DNA from: Cognatitamlana onchidii
Lineage (GTDB): Bacteria; Bacteroidota; Bacteroidia; Flavobacteriales; Flavobacteriaceae
Assembly (NCBI RefSeq): GCF_004804355.1
Contig: NZ_SRWZ01000003.1
Span: forward strand, 310,001-374,000
DNA length: 64,000 nucleotides
Reading direction: 5' to 3'
A program made the position numbers and the translations under genes. Below the pieces are notes generated by a model that did no database searches, had not been told where the DNA came from, and saw only the letters and a program-made list of their open reading frames with translations. Position 1 is the stretch's first letter, and each line of letters starts with the position of its first letter. Of this stretch, positions 39,625-53,526 are shown piece after piece.

Positions 39625-40911
39625 CTATTTACTTGCCGTGTTTAAAAACTTAGGTTTAATTAACAACTGTACCCAAGCCCAGTTTTGTACATCGGCGGCA
39701 TCAGCTTTAGCAACACCTTTTAGCTCGTACATACCATCGCTAGCGAACATTTGAGAGTAACCTATTTTTAAACCATAGCCTTTAAACTTCTTTGAGAATA
39801 CTAAATCAACCTCAGTACCTAAAGACTTCTCACCACTTGGCAATTCTTTTTCGGCACTAAAGTTAAGTACTTTAGCCATTAAGCTTGTAGTTTCTCCTAA
39901 CTTGAAATTCGCCCCTACATGAACATCAAATAAACCAACACTGTTGGCATGGTTACCTACGTAGAAATAATCCATGAAACCATTAAACTTGTGGTTGGTT
40001 CCATATAATGGGAAAAATGCTCCTGTTTCGTCTGTATTCGTTTTATCGTTACCACTAATAATTTCAAGACCAGCTCCTAAACCAACTTTTGAAGATACTT
40101 TATACCCTAAGTCTAAACCTAGTAAGTAAGCGCCTTTCACATCTTTGTAAGATGTACCGTATATAGCCTTACCTGTTTGCATATAGGCATTAAGTGCTGC
40201 ACTGAATGCATTTTTACCAAATTTTAAATGCGTCCCTAAGGTTTGTAAATTAGCAACATCGCCTAAACCAGCAGCCGCATTTTGAAAACCATTATTCATT
40301 AACAATACACTTCCTGAGAAGTTCTCCCATGCATTTGAAGCATGCACCATTTGCATCGTTTTATACGAAAAGAATCCTGAAGTATTATAAGCATTTCCTT
40401 CAGATATAAATCCTGTTGGGTGCGAATAATCTTGATTCCATGCTAGAGCAATATCTAATGCAAACTTATCCTTTTTATATTTGATAAGACCTGCATCATG
40501 GTTTCTTGCTTGTTGCGCCCAATCGAGACCACCTAATATACGCTGATCATCATACGATAATACTTGACGACCAAGTTTTGTGGACCAACCAGAACCTAAC
40601 TGTAGCTCTGCCCAGGCTTGAAAAATTGCGAAAGAATTGTTTTGATCCCAAGGTAGAATTTGTCTGTTTTCACCCCATACCATAACATCTTGAAAACTTA
40701 TATATACTTTGTAAGTTTCGGTGGCATATCCTGCATTTAATCTAGCCCTAGTAGAAATACCAAACCCAGGTTCGGCATTAGCTGGTATTAAGGATCCAAA
40801 TCCATGGCGATATTCTGTTCTCGGTTTAAATTCTCCATCTAGAGTAAACTGTGCATGAGCAAATTTTAGACACACCAGTAATAATCCTAATATTACATAT
40901 TGTTTTTTCAT
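39625..40911 (-). CDS. outer-membrane beta-barrel porin (alginate-export-like fold), nitrate-cluster linked
   Basis: A 428-residue protein with a signal peptide (to 'AHAQ') and a body of alternating amphipathic strands ending in a terminal strand, as in outer-membrane barrels. The N-terminal 'FTLDGEFKPRTEYRHGFGSL' and 'TRARLNAGYATETYKVYISFQDVMVWGE' are typical of the alginate_exp (PF13372) family. It lies downstream of and in the same orientation as the nitrate-type ABC importer genes, so it may admit nitrate or another anion through the outer membrane; this is inference. A TATATTTG box 70 bp upstream suggests its own promoter. Confidence 0.82.
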   Translation of the reverse strand: MKKQYVILGLLLVCLKFAHAQFTLDGEFKPRTEYRHGFGSLIPANAEPGFGISTRARLNAGYATETYKVYISFQDVMVWGENRQILPWDQNNSFAIFQAWAELQLGSGWSTKLGRQVLSYDDQRILGGLDWAQQARNHDAGLIKYKKDKFALDIALAWNQDYSHPTGFISEGNAYNTSGFFSYKTMQMVHASNAWENFSGSVLLMNNGFQNAAAGLGDVANLQTLGTHLKFGKNAFSAALNAYMQTGKAIYGTSYKDVKGAYLLGLDLGYKVSSKVGLGAGLEIISGNDKTNTDETGAFFPLYGTNHKFNGFMDYFYVGNHANSVGLFDVHVGANFKLGETTSLMAKVLNFSAEKELPSGEKSLGTEVDLVFSKKFKGYGLKIGYSQMFASDGMYELKGVAKADAADVQNWAWVQLLIKPKFLNTASK

Positions 40912-44025: not shown

Positions 44026-45420
44026 TTATTGCACAGCTTGGTCTTTGTTACCAATTTTAAAACTGTTAATGTATCCTATCGGATCTTTAGCATCGTAAGT
44101 CGTACCGTCAATGAAATCGGCAGTTGCAGGCTTGTATCCATCGGTAGTTGGGATATCGCTTGCAGGAATGTTTCCTTCTTCCACTAATAACTTAGCTGCT
44201 TTTGTCCAGATATCAGGTCTGTAAATATCTTTGATAGTGTTTGCATACCAATCTGCTGGCTTAGCCTCAGGAATTTGTCCCCATCTTCTCATTTGAGTTA
44301 AGAACCAGATCCCATCAGAATAGAACGGGTATGTTGCATTGTACTTGTAGAATACGTTAAAGTCTGGCATTTCTCTTTTATCACCTTTCTCAAATTCAAA
44401 CGTACCAGTCATTGAGTTTGCTAATACCGCTTCATCAGCACCTACATATTGAGACATTGATAAGATTTTTACAGCTTCAGCTCTGTTTCCTGGCTCATCT
44501 AACCATTTACCAGCTCTAATTAATGCTTTAGTAACCGCAACAGCTGTGTTAGGGTATTGCTCCACAAATTTCTTTGTCATTACAAATACTTTCTCTGGGT
44601 TGTTCTTCCAGATATCGTAGTTGGTAGTAACAGGTACACCAATACCTTTAAAAACCGCTTGTTGGTTCCATGGTTCACCTACACAGTATCCATAAATAGT
44701 TCCTGCTTCAAGTGTAGCTGGCATTTGTGGCGGAGGTGTTACAGATAATAAAACTTCAGCATCAATTTGTCCTTGTACGTTTTCAGCAGTATACATGCCT
44801 GGATGAATTCCAGCCGCCGCTAACCAATATCTAATTTCGTAGTTATGCGTAGATACAGGAAATACCATACCCATTTTAAAGGCTTTACCAGAGTTTTTAT
44901 AATCTTCAATTACAGGTTTTAAAGCCTCAGCTTTAATAGGGTGTACAGGCTTACCATCGGCACCTTTTGGTACATTTGGCTTCATTTTAGACCATACATC
45001 ATTGGATACCGTAATACCATTACCATTTAAATCCATTGAGAATGGTGTTACTAACTCTGCTTGTCGACCAAACCCTGCTCCTGCAGCAATTGGTTGACCT
45101 GCTAACATATGGGAACCATCTAACTGACCATCAATAACGCGGTCTAATACATTTTTCCAGTTTGATTGTGCTTCAACAGAAACAAATAAGCCTTCATCTT
45201 CAAAAAATCCTTTTTCTTTAGCAATGGCTAAAGGTGCCATATCTGTTAATTTGATAAAACCAAATGTTAATTGTGGCTTTTCAATTTCTAAGGTCTTTGT
45301 TGTAGAAGTTTCAGCAGCTGTGTTTTCAGCTATGGTTGTTTTCTTCTCTTTACCACCACAAGCAAATAATACTGCTGCTACGGGTAACATCCAAGTTGTT
45401 CTTTTTAATAGAGCTTTCAT
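44026..45420 (-). CDS. nrtA: nitrate-type ABC transporter substrate-binding lipoprotein (NrtA-like)
   Basis: A 464-residue lipoprotein (signal ending 'LFACGG', Cys21). The solute-binding domain follows NrtA/CmpA: '[28 protein letters not shown]', '[25 protein letters not shown]', '[13 protein letters not shown]' and '[25 protein letters not shown]'. The Trp, Gln and Gly residues that line the nitrate pocket appear to be present. It leads the importer operon and is preceded by the 16-bp palindrome shared with the globin operon and the FNR-like gene. Alternatives are bicarbonate or sulfonate binding; nitrate is favoured by context. Confidence 0.88.
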
Positions 45421-45544
45421 GAGTTTGTTTTTAATGATTTTTAATTGTCACATGTAACCTTTAATGATTAAACTAATATTTAAACTTCGCTTAAATGATT
45501 ATTTTAATCCTGTCGGTTTCATTATTTATGTTTTAATTATTAAC

Positions 45545-45560
45545 TAAGTATTAATACTTA
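45545..45560. promoter_or_regulatory. 16-bp palindromic operator TAAGTATTAATACTTA (nrtA)
   Basis: A perfect palindrome, identical to the one upstream of the globin gene. A TATATTTG box (45569-45576 on the minus strand) lies 8 bp upstream of it, so the palindrome would fall just around or after the transcription start, as expected for a repressor site. Centre 132 bp before the nrtA start. Confidence 0.7.
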
Positions 45561-45568
45561 TTTTGAAG

Positions 45569-45576
45569 CAAATATA
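45569..45576 (-). promoter_or_regulatory. candidate -7 box of the nrtA operon
   Basis: The minus strand reads TATATTTG, matching TAnnTTTG. Spacing of 8 bp to the palindrome resembles the 7 bp at the globin promoter. No clear -33 TTTG. Confidence 0.5.
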
Positions 45577-45637
45577 TAAGTAGTATTAGTTTTAGCTTAT
45601 GGAGATACCCATATATAAACCTCTTTTTAATCCATAA

Positions 45638-45663
45638 AAAAACCTGCACAATTACAGGTTTTT
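45638..45663. terminator. hairpin terminator upstream of the nrtA promoter
   Basis: Stem AAAAACCTG (45638-45646) with CAGGTTTTT (45655-45663), 8-nt loop, T/A runs on both sides. It lies about 470 bp after the DUF3883 stop and may insulate the importer from the defence-like cassette, or be left from an older neighbour. Confidence 0.75.
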
Positions 45664-46128
45664 ATTGTAAATTACTGGTTTTAAGACTACTAACTCATAA
45701 AATCACACTGTTTACATTACGTAAATCACTACGTATAAACAGGTGTTTGTTAATAACATTTTACGTATGTTTTACTTAGAACAGATAAGTTTGAACAGGA
45801 AAGTGTGGGTTTGAGGATGAAAGATACGTAGATTTCTCAATCTATATCAGCATGGTAAGCTTTTGGTTTGAAACGTTATAAGTTTGTTAACGCTACGTTT
45901 ATCGGTCTTGTATATGAAAAGTAGCGGGTTTTTAGCACGAACTTTTCGGTTTATAACTGATCTTAAATTTATAAAATTCGTTTTCGTTTAAGCACTTTAA
46001 CCGCTATTTTTATTCGTTGTTGTGTTTTCGTACTTTATTTCTGTTCTGTTTGTTGCGTTGGCAAAGACATACTCTTTTGCAATTTTGGCTTGTGTGTAGG
46101 TTGAAGCGAATTGCATATGTGTATGGCT

Positions 46129-47109
46129 TTAAGCGTTGGAATTTAATAATTCAATTTTATATTTGTCAACTTGTTTTTCCCAAATATCATCTTTTAAAAT
46201 TGATTTATATGGATTTTGTTTCATTATAGGTTTATAATTCTTATTGTTCATTTCTCTTCTATTTACTAAATATATCCAGTATTTATCTTGCTTCCTTTTT
46301 GCTGTAAGATATTCATTCCTCGACCAAAAAAAGTAAGGTGTACTACCATCATAAGATTTTACCTCTATGAATCTATTTGGAATAATATCGTTTTCATTAT
46401 CATAAGAGGCGACATCATAACCTTCATTAACTATATATTCTGCAACCCAGTCAATTTCTTTTTTGTTATTGAGTCTATTTTTTTCATAGTCCAAAACAAA
46501 CCTTTCAGCTTCTTCCCCATATAATTGTTGAAGCTGCATTGATTTTTTAAATTCTTCAATTCCAATTTTTCTCTTTTTGATTTCAGGTAAAACAGCTTTA
46601 TCAAATAATTTTTTGTACCTCGAATTTATTATAAAGCAATTAATCTCGGGTGTTGGGTGATTCGTTATTGCTCTAAAATCAATTAATAATTGTTTGAAAT
46701 TAGAATGTTTTAAGCCAAAAGCAGCATTGTTAATTTGAAGTGATTTATAAATTATATCATATGATAAATGTTCTGAACAAAATATTTTATGAAATTCATC
46801 ATCATTTTTAAGTGCGAGAAATAGAAATTCATTGAACTTATCCATCATTTGATTTACACTGTTTAAAGAATCTAAAATCCCTTCATTTATTGTGATAATA
46901 TTATTTGAAGTGTTAAGAATATCTATATTTAGTGCTAATTCTAAACAACCATCAAACACGCTCCTTCCATCAATGATTTTATTGTAAAAAAGCTGTTCAA
47001 TATCGCTTATTAAAAAGCTTACATCTTGTTTACTTTTAAGAGTGGTAAGTAGTTCGAAAAAATAATTTGGAGTACCAAAATTGCTGTAATGTCTAAGTTC
47101 TTTGAGCAT
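46129..47109 (-). CDS. DUF3883 (NO VEIN C-terminal) protein, putative PD-(D/E)xK nuclease
   Basis: A protein of about 326 residues, last gene of the cassette. The frame opens at a TTG (47118), but the ATG at 47109 is the likely start. It overlaps the SNF2 gene by 17 bp. The C-terminal 115 residues match DUF3883: 'EEAERFVLDYEKNRL', then 'GYDVASYDNE', 'RFIEVKSYDG' and 'FFWSRNEYLTAKRKQDKYWIYLVNR'. The Asp and the E-V-K spacing fit a PD-(D/E)xK nuclease core. The N-terminal 200 residues are helical and unrecognised. Inferred role: the DNA-cutting or sensing effector of an RM-like defence system with the methyltransferase, ParB-like and SNF2 proteins. Confidence 0.8.
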   Translation of the reverse strand: MLKELRHYSNFGTPNYFFELLTTLKSKQDVSFLISDIEQLFYNKIIDGRSVFDGCLELALNIDILNTSNNIITINEGILDSLNSVNQMMDKFNEFLFLALKNDDEFHKIFCSEHLSYDIIYKSLQINNAAFGLKHSNFKQLLIDFRAITNHPTPEINCFIINSRYKKLFDKAVLPEIKKRKIGIEEFKKSMQLQQLYGEEAERFVLDYEKNRLNNKKEIDWVAEYIVNEGYDVASYDNENDIIPNRFIEVKSYDGSTPYFFWSRNEYLTAKRKQDKYWIYLVNRREMNNKNYKPIMKQNPYKSILKDDIWEKQVDKYKIELLNSNA

Positions 47110-49072
47110 AATTAGCAATTAATTCTTTGATAATATCAGTTTCATCATTATCGTCAATTTGTCTAAATAAAGGAATTTCATCATTTATTATTTCTTCCAT
47201 CCTTTGGATTTTCAAATGCAATCTTGAATTTATGACCTCATCAATGGAATTAGTAGAAACGAAGTAATAGTATTTTGTAATTTGATTATCTGCTAATCCA
47301 ACCCTGTGAATTCGATCTTTTGATTGTAAGAAATTAGAACAGTTGTAATCTCTTTCAAGATAAATTGCATTATGACACCCTTTGTGAAGTGATATAGATT
47401 CTGCAACAGAGAATGGGTTAGCGATAACCACATTAAAATCATTATTATTTGGGTTGTTAAATGCTTTTATAGTTATTTCTCTTTCTTCTTGTGGGATTTG
47501 ACCAATTAGAAGTTTAGATTCGATGTTATTAGCCTTTAAGTATTCTTGTAGTTCAATAGCATTTTGAATAAATATAGTCCAAATAATAACCTTTCCATTT
47601 TCAAGAAAAATATCATTTTGTAAGGTATGCAAGATTGTATTAAATTTTCTTGGAACTTCAAGGTTTGAGTAATTAGTTATTTTATTAAAAAATTCAGAAT
47701 CATTTATAAACTCATCTGTATCAGTTGTGAAAATTGTATTAGGATCAAACTCTCCTGTTAATTCATTGTTTTCCAATGAGTCCTTTAATGTTTTGGAAAG
47801 GAGAGAAGGATTAGTTGCAGCTTGTCTTAACCTAATTAACTTTGCTTTATTTAATATGTCTTTTACTGTTGCTGAACTATCTTCTTTAAAATGTTCGATA
47901 TACTGAGATTCTATGAAGTCATAAATCTCTCTTTGATATGGTTCCATTTCAATTTGAACATAAGTTTCTTCTACAGGTGGAAGATTCAAATCTTCTTTCT
48001 TAATTCTTATAAAATATGGAGAAATATTTTCCTTTAATTCTTGTACACGATTAGAATCTAATGAGCTGTTAGCTGTCATATCTTCTAAATTGTGATAATG
48101 AAACTTTAGTATTTCTTTGAATTTGAAAGGATAAATAAATTTATATAAGTTAAAAATATCTTGATATCCATTTGGCACTGGTGTTCCAGTAAGTATAACT
48201 CTTGATATTGCTTCTTTGGAAATTTCGGTAACACTTTTTCCCCAAACCCCTTCAGGATTTTTAATTCTGTGAGCTTCATCAACAACCACCATAGTTTTGT
48301 TGCGTTTCAAAAAGTCAATAATGTCAGTTTGAAAACGATCTACTCCTCCGTGAAAAATTAGCGATAATTCAGGTGAATTTGGTGAATAAAGGTGCTCTAA
48401 TTTTTTTTCAATGGAAATGTTTGGGTCTCCAGACATTCTGAAAGAACTTGGTTTTACTCCAAAACATTCTTCATATTCATTTTCCCAAGGAGCGAATGAA
48501 GAGAGTGGACCAATAACCAAAAGTTTATCAACGTGGTTTAAATCTTCTTTTGGTAAGCTTTTTAAATATGCATAAGCACCATAAACAATAGATGTTTTTC
48601 CTGCTCCAGGAACAGCAAAATTACAGGAGTTTTGAGCAAAAGCCATATGAAAAGAAGAAAGCAATTGAAGTGGATAAAGTCTTCTTTCCATTTCTTGTTT
48701 TAGAACATTTTGAAACGAGTCAAATTGCTGAACTAATTTGTCATTTTCTTCAAATTCATTATTTCTAATTGCTCTTGCATTTTCACTAAAAATCTCAAAA
48801 TTTTCTTTTTCTTTATGGTAGGTTTCTAATTCAGCTTTTATTGCTTCAGATACAGAGTAATTTATTTCAAATTTTTTAAGTAATCTTTCTATTTCTTGAA
48901 GTGTTTTAATTTGTGTTTCTTCACGAAAAGGAATAACAATAATTTCATTTTCCAATTTATAACCAAGTCTTTTAAATGAAACTAAAAGTCTTTTGTTTTT
49001 CAATAAGGATTCTTCAAAACTATATAAATTGAAAGTGCTTTTTTCATTATTAATATCAATTATTAAAGACAT
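47093..49072 (-). CDS. SNF2-family (DEAD/DEAH) helicase of the defence-like cassette
   Basis: A 659-residue superfamily 2 helicase. Residues 1 to about 130 form a non-helicase N-terminal region with a helical stretch. Motif I is 'NFAVPGAGKTSIVY' (K159), motif II 'VVVDEAHRIKNPEG' (DEAH 265-268), motif III 'LTGTPVPNGYQDIFNLYKF'. The C-terminal helicase lobe has 'KVIIWTIFIQNAIELQEYL', 'VVIANPFSVAESISLHKG' and motif VI 'QSKDRIHRVG'. The SNF2 type usually translocates on double-stranded DNA without unwinding. The start overlaps the upstream stop by 1 nt (TAATG). It probably moves along unmodified DNA and recruits or activates the DUF3883 partner; this is inference. Confidence 0.85.
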   Translation of the reverse strand: MSLIIDINNEKSTFNLYSFEESLLKNKRLLVSFKRLGYKLENEIIVIPFREETQIKTLQEIERLLKKFEINYSVSEAIKAELETYHKEKENFEIFSENARAIRNNEFEENDKLVQQFDSFQNVLKQEMERRLYPLQLLSSFHMAFAQNSCNFAVPGAGKTSIVYGAYAYLKSLPKEDLNHVDKLLVIGPLSSFAPWENEYEECFGVKPSSFRMSGDPNISIEKKLEHLYSPNSPELSLIFHGGVDRFQTDIIDFLKRNKTMVVVDEAHRIKNPEGVWGKSVTEISKEAISRVILTGTPVPNGYQDIFNLYKFIYPFKFKEILKFHYHNLEDMTANSSLDSNRVQELKENISPYFIRIKKEDLNLPPVEETYVQIEMEPYQREIYDFIESQYIEHFKEDSSATVKDILNKAKLIRLRQAATNPSLLSKTLKDSLENNELTGEFDPNTIFTTDTDEFINDSEFFNKITNYSNLEVPRKFNTILHTLQNDIFLENGKVIIWTIFIQNAIELQEYLKANNIESKLLIGQIPQEEREITIKAFNNPNNNDFNVVIANPFSVAESISLHKGCHNAIYLERDYNCSNFLQSKDRIHRVGLADNQITKYYYFVSTNSIDEVINSRLHLKIQRMEEIINDEIPLFRQIDDNDETDIIKELIANYAQRT

Positions 49073-50490
49073 TATATGCTTTTGTTTATTTGATAGCCAA
49101 TTTGTTGTATCCTCTTAGTTTTGTTTTGAACATCTTTGATTTCATCGTCTGGAATTTGTTCAATATCAATGGCTTCCATTAAATTTATAATATGGGACAA
49201 AACCCTTGTAGGTGATTTTTTTTGAAGTGAATCAAAAACTTTATTCCCGAGCTCTTCTACAAGCTTTTGAACAGATTTAGAGTTAAAATTTTTATTGTTC
49301 TTATTTATTGATTCAAATGAATCTAAAGCTTTGTTTATTAACTTTTCGGGTTGATCTTGAGATTGCTTATTTCGTAATTTAGTATAATGATTATCTACAT
49401 TTTCGTCTAAATGCTTTCCTACGTCTTCTTTAAACTTGCTATCAATACTATTTAAATGAGCTTCTAAATTTTTAATATTAACATCAATTTTAGGCTCATC
49501 AAAAGAGTTTGTTATTTTTCTATGCTCCTTTTGAAATGATTCCCAAATCTCCCTATTTCCAAAAAAATGGTTTTGTTTTTGCCCTTGCGCTACATATCTA
49601 AATTTTTCATTTTTATACTTTATTCTGATTAAATCATAACATAATGTTTTTAAGTCATCTACATCATCATCACGATAGTCATCAAAAGCTTTTTTAGAAT
49701 TTTCACCGTAAAAGTTAATTAGCCAAGAAGTTAATCCTCTGAATTGCTCTTCTCTTTCATCCAAAGTAGTGTAAATACCATTGTAATCAAACCAATCTAA
49801 GTATTCATCCATTGAATTCATTACAGCTAGAGTATATTCAATATCATTTACATTTTTTATATTCTTATAATTACCAATCCATTCATAGATTTTTTTAATT
49901 GCTTTTTTATCAACCGTATCAGGAGAGTAAAATGACTTCCCGCTCAATTGCATATATAAACTCTGAACTTTCAAATAAATCTCGATTGGATTGTAATCCA
50001 ATTTTCTCTCTTCTCCTAATTGATATTTAGTCTCGAATTTCTCAATTTCTAAAGGATTTCCTTCATATTCAACTGGTAACACAACAGCTTTGAAATAATC
50101 TATATGGTCAATTTTATTCAGAAGCATTGCTCTCCTGTTTCCATCTATAATTATCCCATCTTCAGTTATTATTCCAACTTTTTCTTGTCCAATTTTTTTT
50201 AAGCTTGCAAGAGTTTCTTTGTTCTTTTGTTCTTTTGAATCCCATAACAAATCTTCAATCAATTTTTTGCCAGCATCACTTTCAGCATCTATTTTTAAAT
50301 TCTGATTTTCGTAAGATTTTGTTCGGCTAAGAATTCTTCCATTATATTTATTATATATAAGATAATTTAAAGGAATTTGATAAACATCCATTGGCTCTAA
50401 CTTGTCTTTCCAAGGAATATCAAGACGACCAACAGGTTTTTCATTTTTAGTTATTCTTTTTATTTGTTGGATTCTAACTTCTTTACTCAT
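49072..50490 (-). CDS. ParB-like nuclease-domain protein of the defence-like cassette
   Basis: A 472-residue protein. Residues about 33-125 resemble a ParB/Sulfiredoxin-type N-terminal domain: 'MDVYQIPLNYLIYNKYNGRI' followed by 'GIITEDGIIIDGNRRAMLLNKI' (DGNRR 116-120), the usual nucleotide-binding box. The rest is helical and unrecognised, with a run of Lys/Asn/Asp-rich sequence (about 330-430). ParB-like folds in defence systems act as NTPases or nicking nucleases (for example in phosphorothioate-linked systems). Here it is encoded between the methyltransferase (2-bp gap) and the SNF2 helicase (TAATG overlap), so it is an obligate member of the unit. Specific role unknown. Confidence 0.75.
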   Translation of the reverse strand: MSKEVRIQQIKRITKNEKPVGRLDIPWKDKLEPMDVYQIPLNYLIYNKYNGRILSRTKSYENQNLKIDAESDAGKKLIEDLLWDSKEQKNKETLASLKKIGQEKVGIITEDGIIIDGNRRAMLLNKIDHIDYFKAVVLPVEYEGNPLEIEKFETKYQLGEERKLDYNPIEIYLKVQSLYMQLSGKSFYSPDTVDKKAIKKIYEWIGNYKNIKNVNDIEYTLAVMNSMDEYLDWFDYNGIYTTLDEREEQFRGLTSWLINFYGENSKKAFDDYRDDDVDDLKTLCYDLIRIKYKNEKFRYVAQGQKQNHFFGNREIWESFQKEHRKITNSFDEPKIDVNIKNLEAHLNSIDSKFKEDVGKHLDENVDNHYTKLRNKQSQDQPEKLINKALDSFESINKNNKNFNSKSVQKLVEELGNKVFDSLQKKSPTRVLSHIINLMEAIDIEQIPDDEIKDVQNKTKRIQQIGYQINKSI

Positions 50491-50492
50491 AA

Positions 50493-52199
50493 TTATTTCT
50501 GATTGGCAATGGTAGATATTTTATTTATGGCATATAATGAAAATAGCTGTTTTAAAGGAACTTTATTCTTTTCTGTAAAAACAACTGTTCCGTTTTGTTC
50601 AAAAAGTATATCAGGGCATTTTACTTTTTCTAATATTTCTTGGATTTGATCAACTAACTCTGTTGGTTGTTCTAAGTTATTAATTGGAACTTGTTTTTCA
50701 TACATTTCTTGAAGTTCAGATTTAGTCCCAATTTTTTCAGAGAATCCGTTATTGATTATATTTAAAAATTTCTTACCACTTTTAGACTTCTTAATTAACT
50801 TCTCTATTTCTATAAAATATCCATCTTTTACTTTTTGTATTGGAAAGCCTTCTCCTGTACCATATTGAATTGAAGTAAACCACTTGCCCTTAGTTTTACT
50901 GTTTTGATCTATATCGTAATTAGATAGTGTTACTGTAAGATTTCCATCTTTTATTGGATGTCTTCTAAATCTTGCTCCTTTTTTCTTAACAGGAGGTTTA
51001 TCAAATTTTTTTCTTTTGTAATTGTTTAAACTTTTTACACCTTCTAGGTTAGGCTTTGTATTTACAACTAATTCATTAGGCTTTTCTAATTTAAGTGTTT
51101 CAATAACAGTTTTTGCCAAAGCTCTACTTACTGGACAACATACTGCATTACCCACTAAACGCCACTTGGTATTTTCGCTCCCTAAAAATTGGTAAGTTAT
51201 TGGGAATCCCATTATTAAAGCTGCTTCACGGACTGTTGGTAATCTATATTCGCCATTACCTTTTCTTCTTATTTCTGATTTATATATTATTGATTCTCTT
51301 GAATTGGCAATTTTCGTTGCTGTTATTGTGCGGCTAGGATTATCGTTGTTTTCAGGGAATGACATTCTTCCCATATAAGGATGATTCTGTTTCCAAAATC
51401 TAGAAAATTTCCATTCAACTTCATATATCCCTGTATCATAGAAATGATCCGTTATTTCATTTTTGGGTATTGAAATTTTGTAATTTATATCACTAATTTT
51501 ATTTGTTGATTTATGCTCGTAAGGATTGGGAAAATTTTCTTTTATTTCTTTTATAGATCGATAAATAGGTAAACTTCCTTTATTTTTTGGACTTCTATGA
51601 GTCTTTTTCGGAATTATAAGTTTTTTCTTCTTTATAATTTCACCAGAAATAACTCTTTTTCGAGCTTGTATTGATCCGTAATCAGCAGAGTTTACAATTG
51701 TAGTGTTTTGGTATAAATTAATTGCTATTTTGTTAGGACTTATTTTGTGAGAATTAGCCCAGTCAGACAATCCTAAATCTTTAAATGTATACTCGGTTTG
51801 AAGATAGCGTTTAGAGTTTACAACATTTTCCATAAACCAAGCTTTAAGTGTAGAGTTTGGCTTATGTTTTTTTACCGCTACAATTTTTAAAAATGTTTCT
51901 GTAAGTTTTACTCCAAGAGATTTATCTGCTTTTCCAGATTTATTTGAACTTGAAAAGCTTACACAAGGAGGACTTCCCAAGATAATGTCTGTATCTGGGA
52001 TTTGTTCTATTTCTTCAGTAGAACTTTCAAAGTCAAGTATATTTTTTGGATTACATTCTAGTTCGAAATTATGATTATAAGTTTCAACAGCAGGTTTCCA
52101 TTGGTCGTATCCAGCAACAATTTTATAACCTTGTTGTCTAAAACCTTCTGAAAATCCACCAGCTCCACAAAAAAAATCTATTACAGTTAGTTTATTCAT
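50493..52199 (-). CDS. C5-cytosine DNA methyltransferase with C-terminal extension
   Basis: A 568-residue methyltransferase. Motif I is 'DFFCGAGGFSEGF' (residues 8-20), motif IV 'GSPPCVSFS' with catalytic Cys79, motif VI 'MENV', motif VIII 'QARKRVI', and motifs IX-X 'PSRTITAT' and 'GNAVCCPVSRALA'. The target recognition region (about 190-300) should define the site. Beyond the core, about 180 residues (from 385) form an extension with a basic segment 'KKKGARFRRHPIKDG' and a beta-rich unit, not seen in plain Dcm enzymes. First gene of the four-gene cassette; it would protect host DNA by 5-methylcytosine. The site specificity cannot be read from sequence. Confidence 0.9.
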   Translation of the reverse strand: MNKLTVIDFFCGAGGFSEGFRQQGYKIVAGYDQWKPAVETYNHNFELECNPKNILDFESSTEEIEQIPDTDIILGSPPCVSFSSSNKSGKADKSLGVKLTETFLKIVAVKKHKPNSTLKAWFMENVVNSKRYLQTEYTFKDLGLSDWANSHKISPNKIAINLYQNTTIVNSADYGSIQARKRVISGEIIKKKKLIIPKKTHRSPKNKGSLPIYRSIKEIKENFPNPYEHKSTNKISDINYKISIPKNEITDHFYDTGIYEVEWKFSRFWKQNHPYMGRMSFPENNDNPSRTITATKIANSRESIIYKSEIRRKGNGEYRLPTVREAALIMGFPITYQFLGSENTKWRLVGNAVCCPVSRALAKTVIETLKLEKPNELVVNTKPNLEGVKSLNNYKRKKFDKPPVKKKGARFRRHPIKDGNLTVTLSNYDIDQNSKTKGKWFTSIQYGTGEGFPIQKVKDGYFIEIEKLIKKSKSGKKFLNIINNGFSEKIGTKSELQEMYEKQVPINNLEQPTELVDQIQEILEKVKCPDILFEQNGTVVFTEKNKVPLKQLFSLYAINKISTIANQK

Positions 52200-52256
52200 A
52201 TGTAGGTCAAATCTACGATTTTTTCTTTTTTTAATTCAGTTCGGCATAGGCAAAAA

Positions 52257-52317
52257 AACAGCTCTTTTGGTTTTTTATGCGTTGGTTCGTGTTTCTGGAA
52301 AAACCAAATGTGCTGTT
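52257..52317. repeat. two-part inverted repeat at the cassette border
   Basis: AACAGC (52257-52262) pairs with GCTGTT (52312-52317), then a symmetrical 4-nt internal loop, then TTGGTTTTT (52267-52275) pairs with AAAAACCAA (52299-52307), with a 23-nt apical loop. The layout of two stems separated by an internal loop recalls attC-like folded recombination sites, though no integrase is in the window. Confidence 0.5.
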
Positions 52318-52582
52318 TGTGCGGTTGGCTTTTTTCAGTATGAAACACAACGGTAAAATATAGTTCCATTTTAATGAACTATATTGCATGATAAGCGAAG
52401 TTCAAACTTTCCTACAAGAAAATCAACATATACTGTATGTACTTATTAACAAAATGACCATTACAAGTCATGAGATGCCAACGACAACAGCATCTTAGGT
52501 AACCCTATATTACTTCACTACGTTCGCAATAACAAAATGAAGATTAGAGTAACTGTAATTTTAGTAACGGTGTTAGTTAGTA

Positions 52583-52670
52583 CACCCGCGTTAGGGATAG
52601 AACGGCATGTTAGAGCTCCTCTCAGAGCGCGAGTAATGAAAGCCTGCCTTCCGGCAGGCAGGACCGACCT
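52583..52670 (+). repeat. candidate structured intergenic element, copy 1
   Basis: Contains 'gcgttagggat' and a 7-bp hairpin GCCTGCC (52642-52648)/GGCAGGC (52653-52659) within CCGGCAGGCAGG. A second copy in reverse orientation lies at 58750-58842 and shares 'gttagggat' and the 12-mer CCGGCAGGCAGG (one position changed in its other arm). It looks like a dispersed Bacteroidota intergenic element or RNA-like motif. Confidence 0.55.
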
Positions 52671-52740
52671 ATACCTGAACTAAATTCACGGTAAGTCCTA
52701 AACTAAATTCAGGATATAGATAACGCTCGAAATAAAAACA

Positions 52741-52773
52741 CAAAAAACCAGCCTTTTGGTATAAAGGCTGGTT
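52741..52773 (-). terminator. terminator of the globin-cytochrome operon
   Basis: Perfect 11-bp stem AACCAGCCTTT (52746-52756) with AAAGGCTGGTT (52763-52773). On the minus strand it is followed by a T run, 46 bp after the cytochrome gene. Confidence 0.9.
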
Positions 52774-52818
52774 GCTGAAGCATACATACACATGATGTAT
52801 AAAGCAAAAATTAGCTTT

Positions 52819-53526
52819 TTATTCTTCTAAGGTTTTAAGCCATGCTTCTTGAGATAAGGCGATGTATTTTTTGTTGGTTCCGTAAGGGTCGTCGCCACCA
52901 TCAAAATAGCTTTGTATGAGTTTCATAGGAATGGTATCTTTTAACTTTTCAGGTACTTCGTACCTGTGGTTACCGTGAAAATCATGACATTGAATACAGG
53001 TAGACCACTGCTCATCTGCAATTAATTGTTTATGCGATATATCTAACGGATCATTTTCAACGTCTAGCTCTTGGTGGCAATTCATACAGTAATTGATATT
53101 TGCTACAGATACGCGTTCGTTTTCATGTTCGGTATGGCAAGTAATACAGGTAGTGGCATCAATATGTTGCACCGCTTCTTTAAATCGAGGCTCAGAAAAT
53201 CGATAGGTTGGATGCCTATCGTTAGGACGATCATGACATTGCAAACAATTATCTACGGTTACATCTTGGGTTCCAAAGTCTACACCTGTGCTTCTTGCTC
53301 CTACGGCATGCGCTATATTAGATTGTACTTGCTGCAGCAAATTACCTTTGGCATCGGCATGACATGCAAAACAATTAAGCTCTTGATGTCCTGTATTCAT
53401 AGGACCAATAGACACATATTCCTCAGTAGCTTCTAAGGTAAACATATAGAATAAAGATACGCCTACCACCACCCCTATAATGCCTCCAATAACTTGTCTT
53501 TTACGTAACGGACTTACTTTAAACAT
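52819..53526 (-). CDS. membrane-anchored pentaheme c-type cytochrome
   Basis: A 235-residue protein with one N-terminal TM helix (about residues 11-30) and five CxxCH heme sites: CFACH, CLQCH, CITCH, CMNCH and CIQCH. Extra His residues between them can serve as distal ligands, as in NapC/NrfH- and cytochrome c3-type proteins. It faces the periplasm and could carry electrons from quinol or from the cassette's reductase to a periplasmic acceptor. Last gene of the globin operon, 18 bp after the flavoprotein reductase gene. It is not the classic 4-heme NapC/NirT, as the CxxCH spacing differs. Confidence 0.87.
   Translation of the reverse strand: MFKVSPLRKRQVIGGIIGVVVGVSLFYMFTLEATEEYVSIGPMNTGHQELNCFACHADAKGNLLQQVQSNIAHAVGARSTGVDFGTQDVTVDNCLQCHDRPNDRHPTYRFSEPRFKEAVQHIDATTCITCHTEHENERVSVANINYCMNCHQELDVENDPLDISHKQLIADEQWSTCIQCHDFHGNHRYEVPEKLKDTIPMKLIQSYFDGGDDPYGTNKKYIALSQEAWLKTLEE

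Follow-up and report, generated by a model that had tools for sequence, protein, structure and literature searches.

The DNA analysed here (the window) is a stretch of 64,000 nucleotides from Cognatitamlana onchidii (Flavobacteriaceae; assembly GCF_004804355.1, contig NZ_SRWZ01000003.1, positions 310,001 to 374,000). At 46129-52199 of this window, four genes follow one another on the minus strand: a C5-cytosine methyltransferase (50493-52199, 568 residues), a ParB-like protein (49072-50490, 472 residues), an SNF2-type ATPase of superfamily 2 (SF2; 47093-49072, 659 residues), and a NOV_C (DUF3883) protein (46129-47109). An earlier annotation made from the letters of the DNA, referred to below as the original prediction, had described them as a compact operon and as a possible undescribed anti-phage system. 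All four open reading frames (ORFs) are indeed open; the methyltransferase and ParB genes are separated by 2 bp, and the ParB and SNF2 genes share one base (TAATG). The start listed for the NOV_C gene was a TTG at 47118, which adds three residues to the protein; the ATG at 47109 lines up with the starts of its relatives and yields the predicted 17-bp overlap with the SNF2 gene. The cassette is a restriction-type set that is not in the catalogues searched, and its interesting side is a modular architecture centred on the ParB-like protein. Its role is probably defence.

The methyltransferase matched Pfam DNA_methylase (5.7e-42) and NCBIfam dcm (113.6 bits; cut-off, 100.65). The catalytic Cys79 (in a PPC motif), the ENV motif and both Arg residues of QxRxR are present, and the Cys is kept in 45 of 45 aligned relatives. 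The fold search with its structural model (predicted local distance difference test, pLDDT, of 92.8) covered residues 1-373; in this model residues 1-371 are predicted to fit DNMT1 (6w8v_A: Z 30.1, root-mean-square deviation (rmsd) 3.0, 323 aligned residues) as well as M.HaeIII (1dct_A: Z 26.6). Pfam, NCBIfam, model and fold match all agree with a C5 DNA methyltransferase of the kind found in type II restriction-modification (R-M) systems. The remaining C-terminal extension (residues 376-568; 50493-51074, minus strand) is without a known family: it gave no Pfam match, and its best PDB sequence match had an E-value of 0.59. Across 47 sequences its conserved residues were N, L, N, F, H, V, L, N, W, Q and P, with no invariant acidic residue and no conserved acid/lysine set. 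As no acid is invariant, the extension does not look like a metal-dependent nuclease; homology to DpnII/BanI-like endonucleases was rejected as well (hhalign probability 0.1%). We propose that it may serve as a reader or coupling domain.

No usable Pfam, PADLOC or NCBIfam family was found for the ParB-like protein. It carries an NxR box and a D-G-N-R-R box, and it aligned over 110 columns with a profile of 20 canonical ParB proteins (hhalign probability 65%, E 6.2e-5), three control profiles giving probabilities of 0.2-0.5%; in PDB profile searches ParB was recovered weakly (E 0.026 with 10 rows, 0.8 with 69 rows). The N-terminal boxes and the profile homology point, with moderate strength, to the ParB/Srx superfamily, and the protein is a candidate nucleoside triphosphate (NTP)-dependent DNA clamp or switch. 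Residues D111, G112 and G117-N118-R119-R120 were present in 69 of 69 sequences and D116 in 67 of them. The SNF2 protein, which matched Pfam SNF2-rel_dom (2.8e-27) and Helicase_C (2.2e-9), contains a Walker A motif (GAGKT), DEAH, TGTP and a motif VI (QSKDRIHRVG); pattern matching on 88 rows found Walker A, TGTP and motif VI in every one and DExH in 83.

The NOV_C protein (Pfam NOV_C, 1.8e-18) consists of an N-terminal region and a putative C-terminal PD-(D/E)XK nuclease domain. In its model (pLDDT 91.5), residues 190-312 resembled the nuclease subunit of SPARDA (9qcc_M: Z 9.5, rmsd 3.5, 108 aligned residues) and residues 197-308 resembled Hjc (1gef_E: Z 8.1, rmsd 2.9, 93 aligned residues); Foldseek alone gave no match to this model at E<=0.001. 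E205, D235, E252 and K254 were conserved in 54 of 55 sequences, and these E...D...ExK residues together with the predicted fold indicate a PD-(D/E)XK nuclease. The conserved core would suit a cognate endonuclease, yet sister loci hold NOV_C beside another endonuclease. The original prediction had named a C5 methyltransferase with an extra C-terminal part, a ParB-like protein with a DGNRR box, an SNF2-type helicase with intact motifs and a DUF3883 protein with a nuclease core; each of these assignments held, and so, as far as gene content can tell, did the combination of modification enzyme, translocase and nuclease in one cassette.

To follow the occurrence of the set, 84,980 species genomes were scanned with a ParB alignment and a required pattern of DGx[IV][IV][DN]GNRR. 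This confirmed 305 relatives, of which the 80 best were retained, and all four families lay within 7 kb of the ParB gene in 70 of these 80 loci; as the 80 were chosen for their closeness to the ParB-like protein of the window, this figure is no rate for all 305. The 80 include near-copies (L025 repeats L014), and L117 and other viral contigs stand outside the counts. The loci span 13 named phyla plus three records without a phylum, with Bacillota (30) and Bacteroidota (27) the most frequent. The order methyltransferase-ParB-SNF2-NOV_C on one strand was seen in 43 of the 47 loci in which the methyltransferase bears the extension. ParB-SNF2 spacing ranged from -34 to +30 bp (73 loci measured), and the SNF2 and NOV_C frames overlapped in 64 of 65 measured loci, by 11-35 bp when the most upstream start codon was used. 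Ten loci were incomplete: by eye, L067, L071, L073 and L087 end at a contig edge; L032, L039 and L042 are of a Sau3AI type; and L090, L092 and L093 have a hydrolase in place of SNF2 and NOV_C. Of 395 genomes of the phylum, 7 were found to encode the ParB-like protein, the window's own included, and four of the other six (L014-L017) have the identical four genes in the same order, although the SNF2 gene of L015 is broken by an integrase-core gene of insertion-sequence type and the ParB gene of L016 is split over two frames. The arrangement of the four families exceeds chance, and the set is widespread and conserved; rare co-occurrence elsewhere, which had been named beforehand as a finding that would speak against the proposal, was not what was observed.

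A methyltransferase was present in 78 of the 80 loci, with the extension in 47 and without it in 31. Profiles were built for two endonuclease families, DpnII/BanI-like and Sau3AI-like, and a distance of 7 kb was considered. None of the 47 extension-bearing loci contained either endonuclease, whereas 29 of the 31 loci without extension did (23 DpnII/BanI-like, 6 Sau3AI-like); the remaining two have a BglII-family gene (L051, 1e-9) and a BglII match below the cut-off (L091, 7e-4). Fisher's test gave p 2e-19 for this exclusion, relatedness among the loci being ignored. Short or split endonuclease ORFs occur in L032, L063 and L075. An SNF2 tree, obtained by a quick method with no mixture model, carrying a warning of long branches meeting and implying no direction of change, contained 9 label changes in total, one of them an artefact (L105, a near-copy of L104; endonuclease beyond the contig end); judged by its starred branches, the extension label must have changed at least 5 times and the Sau3AI label at least 3 times. 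The mutual exclusion suggests that extension and endonuclease have one and the same function for the ParB-SNF2 core, the simplest candidate being recognition of the unmodified site, and the methyltransferase extension appears to take the place of an endonuclease gene.

When the extension was searched for on its own, it turned up in 8 genomes of the phylum (395 searched) and in 9 of the family (299 searched), which came to 13 distinct genomes once a spurious match in G558 (E 8e-4, with no methyltransferase ORF there) had been dropped; these genomes overlap the 80-locus set (e.g., L025, L026, L029 and L093), and the two sets are not independent. Eight of the 13 carry ParB-SNF2-NOV_C, four a NERD-helicase operon and one a ParB with a hydrolase, a helicase-containing operon thus standing beside the extension in 12 of 13. 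DrmA was present in three of the four NERD-helicase operons, the contig of the fourth ending before it. Since the extension also serves DrmA-type helicase operons, it need not be a nuclease. The extended methyltransferase heads these DISARM-like operons in L169 (1-11379), L171 (1-10739) and L180 (7556-17764), which comprise a NERD-domain helicase (about 580 residues), a protein of about 830 residues and DrmA. In L169 and L171 these genes are followed by one for a further protein, read by eye as DrmB-like, with no PADLOC or Pfam hit.

The ParB-SNF2 pair is also found in other company. An 8.8-kb Lacticaseibacillus plasmid (L009) has only four annotated genes, mod, res, a ParB-like gene and an SNF2-type helicase gene, and this order recurs for mod and res relatives in the viral contigs L113-L116, where mod of L115 and SNF2 of L113 are each broken into two pieces. 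The SNF2 protein bears a PLD domain at its N-terminus in two plasmid loci, L011 and L010, the match in L010 falling slightly short of the Pfam cut-off. Because ParB-SNF2 is found with DpnII/BanI-, Sau3AI- and BglII-like type II systems as well as with type III R-M, the four genes of the window represent one version of a modular family. Vsr genes, absent from the cassette of the window, lay within 7 kb in 22 of the 80 loci, and all four ORFs tested passed the Pfam Vsr cut-off. Vsr mends deaminated 5-methylcytosine, and its nearness fits real 5-methylcytosine in those hosts.

The cassette is mobile and moves as a unit. Its G+C content is 0.28-0.30, against about 0.35-0.37 in the surrounding DNA. 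DNA comparison with relatives (matches of more than 150 bp beyond window base 40000) gave similarity at 46142-52200 with L020 (89% identity), at 46119-52277 with L021 (89%), at 46063-52232 with L029 (81%) and, at most, at 45906-52333 in two pieces with L015. Similarity to near relatives thus ends at the cassette edges, and this together with the low G+C delimits an approximate transfer unit of 46000-52330. The neighbours on the two sides, both on the minus strand and outside the system, are a gene for an NMT1-like ABC substrate-binding protein (44026-45420, Pfam NMT1_2) and a multihaem cytochrome c gene (52819-53526), and the distance between them is 7.4 kb (45420-52819). The cytochrome gene was found at E<=1e-20 in 10 of 149 family genomes, the window's own included, and seven stretches were taken from the nine others. 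In three of them (L153, L154 and L158) the cytochrome and NMT1-like genes are adjacent, about 260-550 bp apart, which corresponds to an empty site; in L152, L155 and L156 other genes separate them by about 1.6-5.5 kb, and L157 has no binding-protein gene within the stretch examined. The empty and the differently filled junctions of the relatives, set beside the 7.4 kb of the window, indicate an insertion spot in which the cassette is the insert. The fillers in L152, L155 and L156 were PIN-like and ASCH-like genes; TssD/Hcp-like and repeated lipoprotein-like genes; and a small insert.

Low G+C, similarity limited to the cassette and the three empty sites agree with the acquired island that the original prediction had envisaged. 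Its picture of G/T-rich, hairpin-bearing flanks was borne out weakly: the left flank is T-rich (G+T 417/720) and one clear hairpin lies behind the cytochrome gene, while the right flank as a whole shows no G/T enrichment (G+T 310/640). This terminator-like hairpin (52746-52773, minus strand), situated between the upstream cytochrome gene and the cassette, is one of four terminator-like sites found in 45400-53000, where 2.4 were expected. No direct repeat of at least 11 bp joins the two cassette flanks; just two 11-bp inverted matches were found, and flanking direct repeats or att-like sites were accordingly rejected. A search of viral contigs with the single ParB sequence gave no confirmed relative; with the ParB alignment, 18 loci were obtained from IMG/VR (one without a ParB ORF), and nine of the 18 hold all four families. 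The Streptococcus prophage Javan191 (L184, 1-6607) encodes a BanI/DpnII-like endonuclease, ParB, SNF2 and NOV_C opposite a C5 methyltransferase; the gene order is that found in Clostridia, and the set stands at the start of the record.

The cassette was compared with named systems by content. DISARM is defined by the DrmA, DrmB and DrmC genes, BREX by PglZ, BrxC and PglX, and Dnd/Ssp by DndCDE or SspBCD; Tiamat and PD-T4-1 are single-protein systems. DISARM was rejected: neither DrmB nor DrmC appeared among the matches listed (for the methyltransferase, 25 of 51 families, DrmMII among them), and the cassette contains neither a DrmA gene nor any gene beyond the four. The SNF2 protein gave one weak PADLOC hit to DrmA (8.2e-6) and weak ones to DrmD (best 4.7e-16; 51.7 bits, against a cut-off of 610). 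What the cassette does share with DISARM is the pairing of a C5 methyltransferase, here with DrmMII hits (best 2.5e-24), with an SF2 helicase, and the DrmA-containing operons of L169, L171 and L180 have its very type of extended methyltransferase. BREX was rejected because no PglZ, BrxC or PglX appeared among the matches listed, the only BREX components there being BrxHI/HII at 0.0021 for the SNF2 protein. ZorD of Zorya ranked first among the PADLOC hits to the SNF2 protein (1.8e-25) but reached 58.6 bits against a cut-off of 1500, with no ZorA or ZorB among the matches listed, and for Dnd/Ssp no DndCDE or SspBCD was among those listed for the four proteins. Tiamat TmtA and PD-T4-1 have a NOV_C region in common with the cassette nuclease (PADLOC, 8.4e-13 and 1.8e-11, respectively), but neither has a methyltransferase, ParB or SNF2. 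No complete named system was detected by PADLOC or NCBIfam at the locus. The earlier exclusion of DISARM, BREX and phosphorothioate genes was thus borne out by PADLOC and NCBIfam content among the matches listed.

Several published arrangements come close, as far as the accessible text of each source goes. CglI is an ATP-dependent type II restriction system in which the nuclease subunit R.CglI and the DEAD-family protein H.CglI bring about NTP-dependent cutting (PMC5737866); by this description it resembles the cassette in using a nuclease with a separate helicase-like ATPase, but it has two restriction proteins and its abstract mentions no ParB. The MORC-SNF2-methylase-Vsr neighbourhoods of Iyer 2008 (PMC2292703) likewise bring together a cytosine methylase, an SWI2/SNF2 helicase, Vsr and a nuclease; they are, however, centred on MutL/MORC ATPases, and the main text of the paper nowhere mentions the word ParB. 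A survey of HEPN proteins describes DUF3883 as a novel restriction endonuclease domain fused to SNF2 in R-M operons (PMC3710099). The Ava_2192/DUF499 operons described there share an SNF2 helicase and a DUF3883 restriction-type nuclease with the cassette, but the two are fused and accompany a HEPN/AAA+ (DUF499) protein, and ParB is not part of the accessible description. DUF3883 has also been counted, presumptively, as a type II endonuclease in archaeal R-M systems (PMC10609329), ParBc and Vsr domains are listed among R-M elements near two-component-like genes (PMC8011034), and a PLD-SNF2 protein has been compared with DISARM (PMC6098607). The four-gene set is not described in the accessible parts of any of these sources, nor in those of the BREX-related PMC12839542, the Dnd paper PMC10853773, the YprA paper PMC12458937, PMC10952713 or PMC12707154. 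The possibility of an undescribed system stands to this extent: no description was found in the open-access literature, PADLOC or NCBIfam, and closed-access work or the remaining text of the papers cited may contain one.

What is observed, namely the gene content, the conservation of motifs and operon, the mobility and the swapping of partners, can be accommodated in a mechanism to which we give an even chance: ATP-dependent restriction that is guarded by methylation and in which ParB is the loader or switch. The methyltransferase, whose motifs are intact, would mark the host target with 5-methylcytosine. A reader of the unmodified site would then license loading of the ParB-like protein, this reader being, as the mutual exclusion hints, the extension in the window and a dedicated endonuclease in the sister versions. 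ParB, in view of its boxes, could act as an NTP-driven clamp or switch; the SNF2 ATPase, with its complete motifs, would translocate; and the NOV_C PD-(D/E)XK nuclease, whose gene overlaps that of SNF2, would cut the incoming DNA. The pattern of extension and endonuclease, the use of the extension in DrmA operons and the conserved coupling of SNF2 with NOV_C all favour this mechanism.

A number of observations weigh against it. An endonuclease is present or likely in 31 of the 78 methyltransferase loci, and a further nuclease looks redundant there. The Sau3AI-type loci L032, L039 and L042 manage without NOV_C, and in 5 of the 80 loci an alpha/beta-hydrolase is paired with the ParB relative. 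The extended methyltransferase is not exclusive to the ParB set, being found with a NERD-helicase operon in 4 of the 13 genomes. In the phylum, L018 and L019 have ParB, SNF2 and NOV_C relatives with no methyltransferase adjacent; the genome of L019 (G251) has no PF00145 match, and its distant ParB/SNF2/NOV_C set lies near a ResIII/HSDR_N protein. Finally, the matches of the N-terminal half of NOV_C to the Roquin ROQ domain (Z 6.8), N.BspD6I (5.7) and the BpuJI recognition domain (5.2-5.3) are at noise level (Z 5-7) and possibly reflect just a common arrangement.

A broader version of the restriction mechanism, which we advance only tentatively, is that the ParB-like clamp is a general plug-in of R-M systems, sensing unmodified DNA through the extension or the endonuclease and signalling to interchangeable effectors (SNF2 with NOV_C, PLD-SNF2, and possibly a membrane-attacking alpha/beta-hydrolase). 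If true, one sensor would link methylation status to DNA destruction or cell damage. Should the preferred reading of the cassette be right, a ParB homologue would act in a role unrelated to chromosome partition, and there would be an explanation for ParB-SNF2 genes that neighbour restriction genes of types II and III in plasmids and prophages; the set would then stand for a large uncatalogued restriction-type defence family in many bacterial phyla. The role of the extension, the reason why extension and endonuclease interchange, and the coupling of methylation status to effectors by ParB become testable questions.

One alternative explanation is that ParB senses phage attack on, or failure of, a resident R-M system and, in the manner of PrrC, triggers DNA destruction or cell damage through an exchangeable effector (SNF2 with NOV_C, or the alpha/beta-hydrolase). 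ParB persists across loci that differ in their effector, as in the pairs of ParB relative and hydrolase near R-M genes in L031 (5497-6309), L061 (14343-16443), L090 (9908-12072), L092 (10001-12058) and L093 (9980-12069), the first two of which adjoin a methyltransferase-ParB-SNF2-NOV_C set. The Ser, Asp and His of the hydrolase triad are, by eye, conserved in four aligned sequences, and the hydrolase is a possible lipase-type effector that would not be expected to cut DNA. The core moreover accompanies R-M systems with three kinds of endonuclease as well as type III R-M, and PrrC and PARIS provide a precedent, being described as R-M guardians in the accessible text of a review (PMC12707154). 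The hydrolase pairs and the R-M systems with an endonuclease of their own keep such a guard or abortive-infection role live. Against it, the version in the window has no separate endonuclease to guard, the operon-tight coupling to the methyltransferase is more to be expected of a working part than of a guard, and the trigger is not known; we regard this explanation as unlikely, though it deserves attention.

An additional scenario is that the partner endonuclease or the extension cuts first, and that ParB-SNF2-NOV_C then loads on the ends and degrades the fragments. The presence of the core with DpnII/BanI-, Sau3AI- and BglII-like endonucleases would suit such a second step, as would the substitution of extension and endonuclease for each other; the absence of an invariant acidic residue from the extension, unlike a metal-dependent nuclease, and the use of the same extension in DrmA-containing operons make it improbable. 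That the extension never accompanies the endonuclease genes searched for could also mean that it is itself a new endonuclease domain; the methyltransferase would then be a fusion of modification and restriction enzyme, to which the other three genes are accessory. The SNF2 tree, in which Sau3AI-type partners need at least 3 label changes among the extended rows (with no direction inferred), is compatible with this, but the extension has no conserved acid/lysine set, and we consider a fused enzyme quite improbable. A non-defence role in gene regulation or DNA maintenance, with an orphan methyltransferase, a remodeller and a partition-like protein, is suggested by the names ParB and SNF2 and by a PADLOC scan of nine large neighbouring proteins that gave one defence protein, but is highly improbable given the patchy presence (7/395 phylum genomes), the mobile insert, the endonuclease partners, and the occurrence of a related set in a prophage and of the ParB-SNF2 pair in plasmids.

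As regards expression, a Bacteroidota-type promoter pattern occurred 5 times in the window (5.07 expected) and never ahead of the cassette, sigma-70-like sites showed no excess (38 found, 39.1 expected), and Rfam gave no match within 45000-53500. The genome of the window has a second C5 methyltransferase gene outside the window (G000:C5:421147-422073). In the Clostridia-type loci L064 (15819-16858) and L095 (15857-16893), a helix-turn-helix protein and an ImmA/IrrE-like M78 peptidase follow the methyltransferase, possibly as a controller pair. The nine neighbouring proteins scanned with PADLOC came from a list of 200; their single hit was TmtA in L058, and a general defence-island context is not shown by it. 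This TmtA is a full-length Tiamat relative that lies directly behind a cassette of that locus (L058, 10113-14702).

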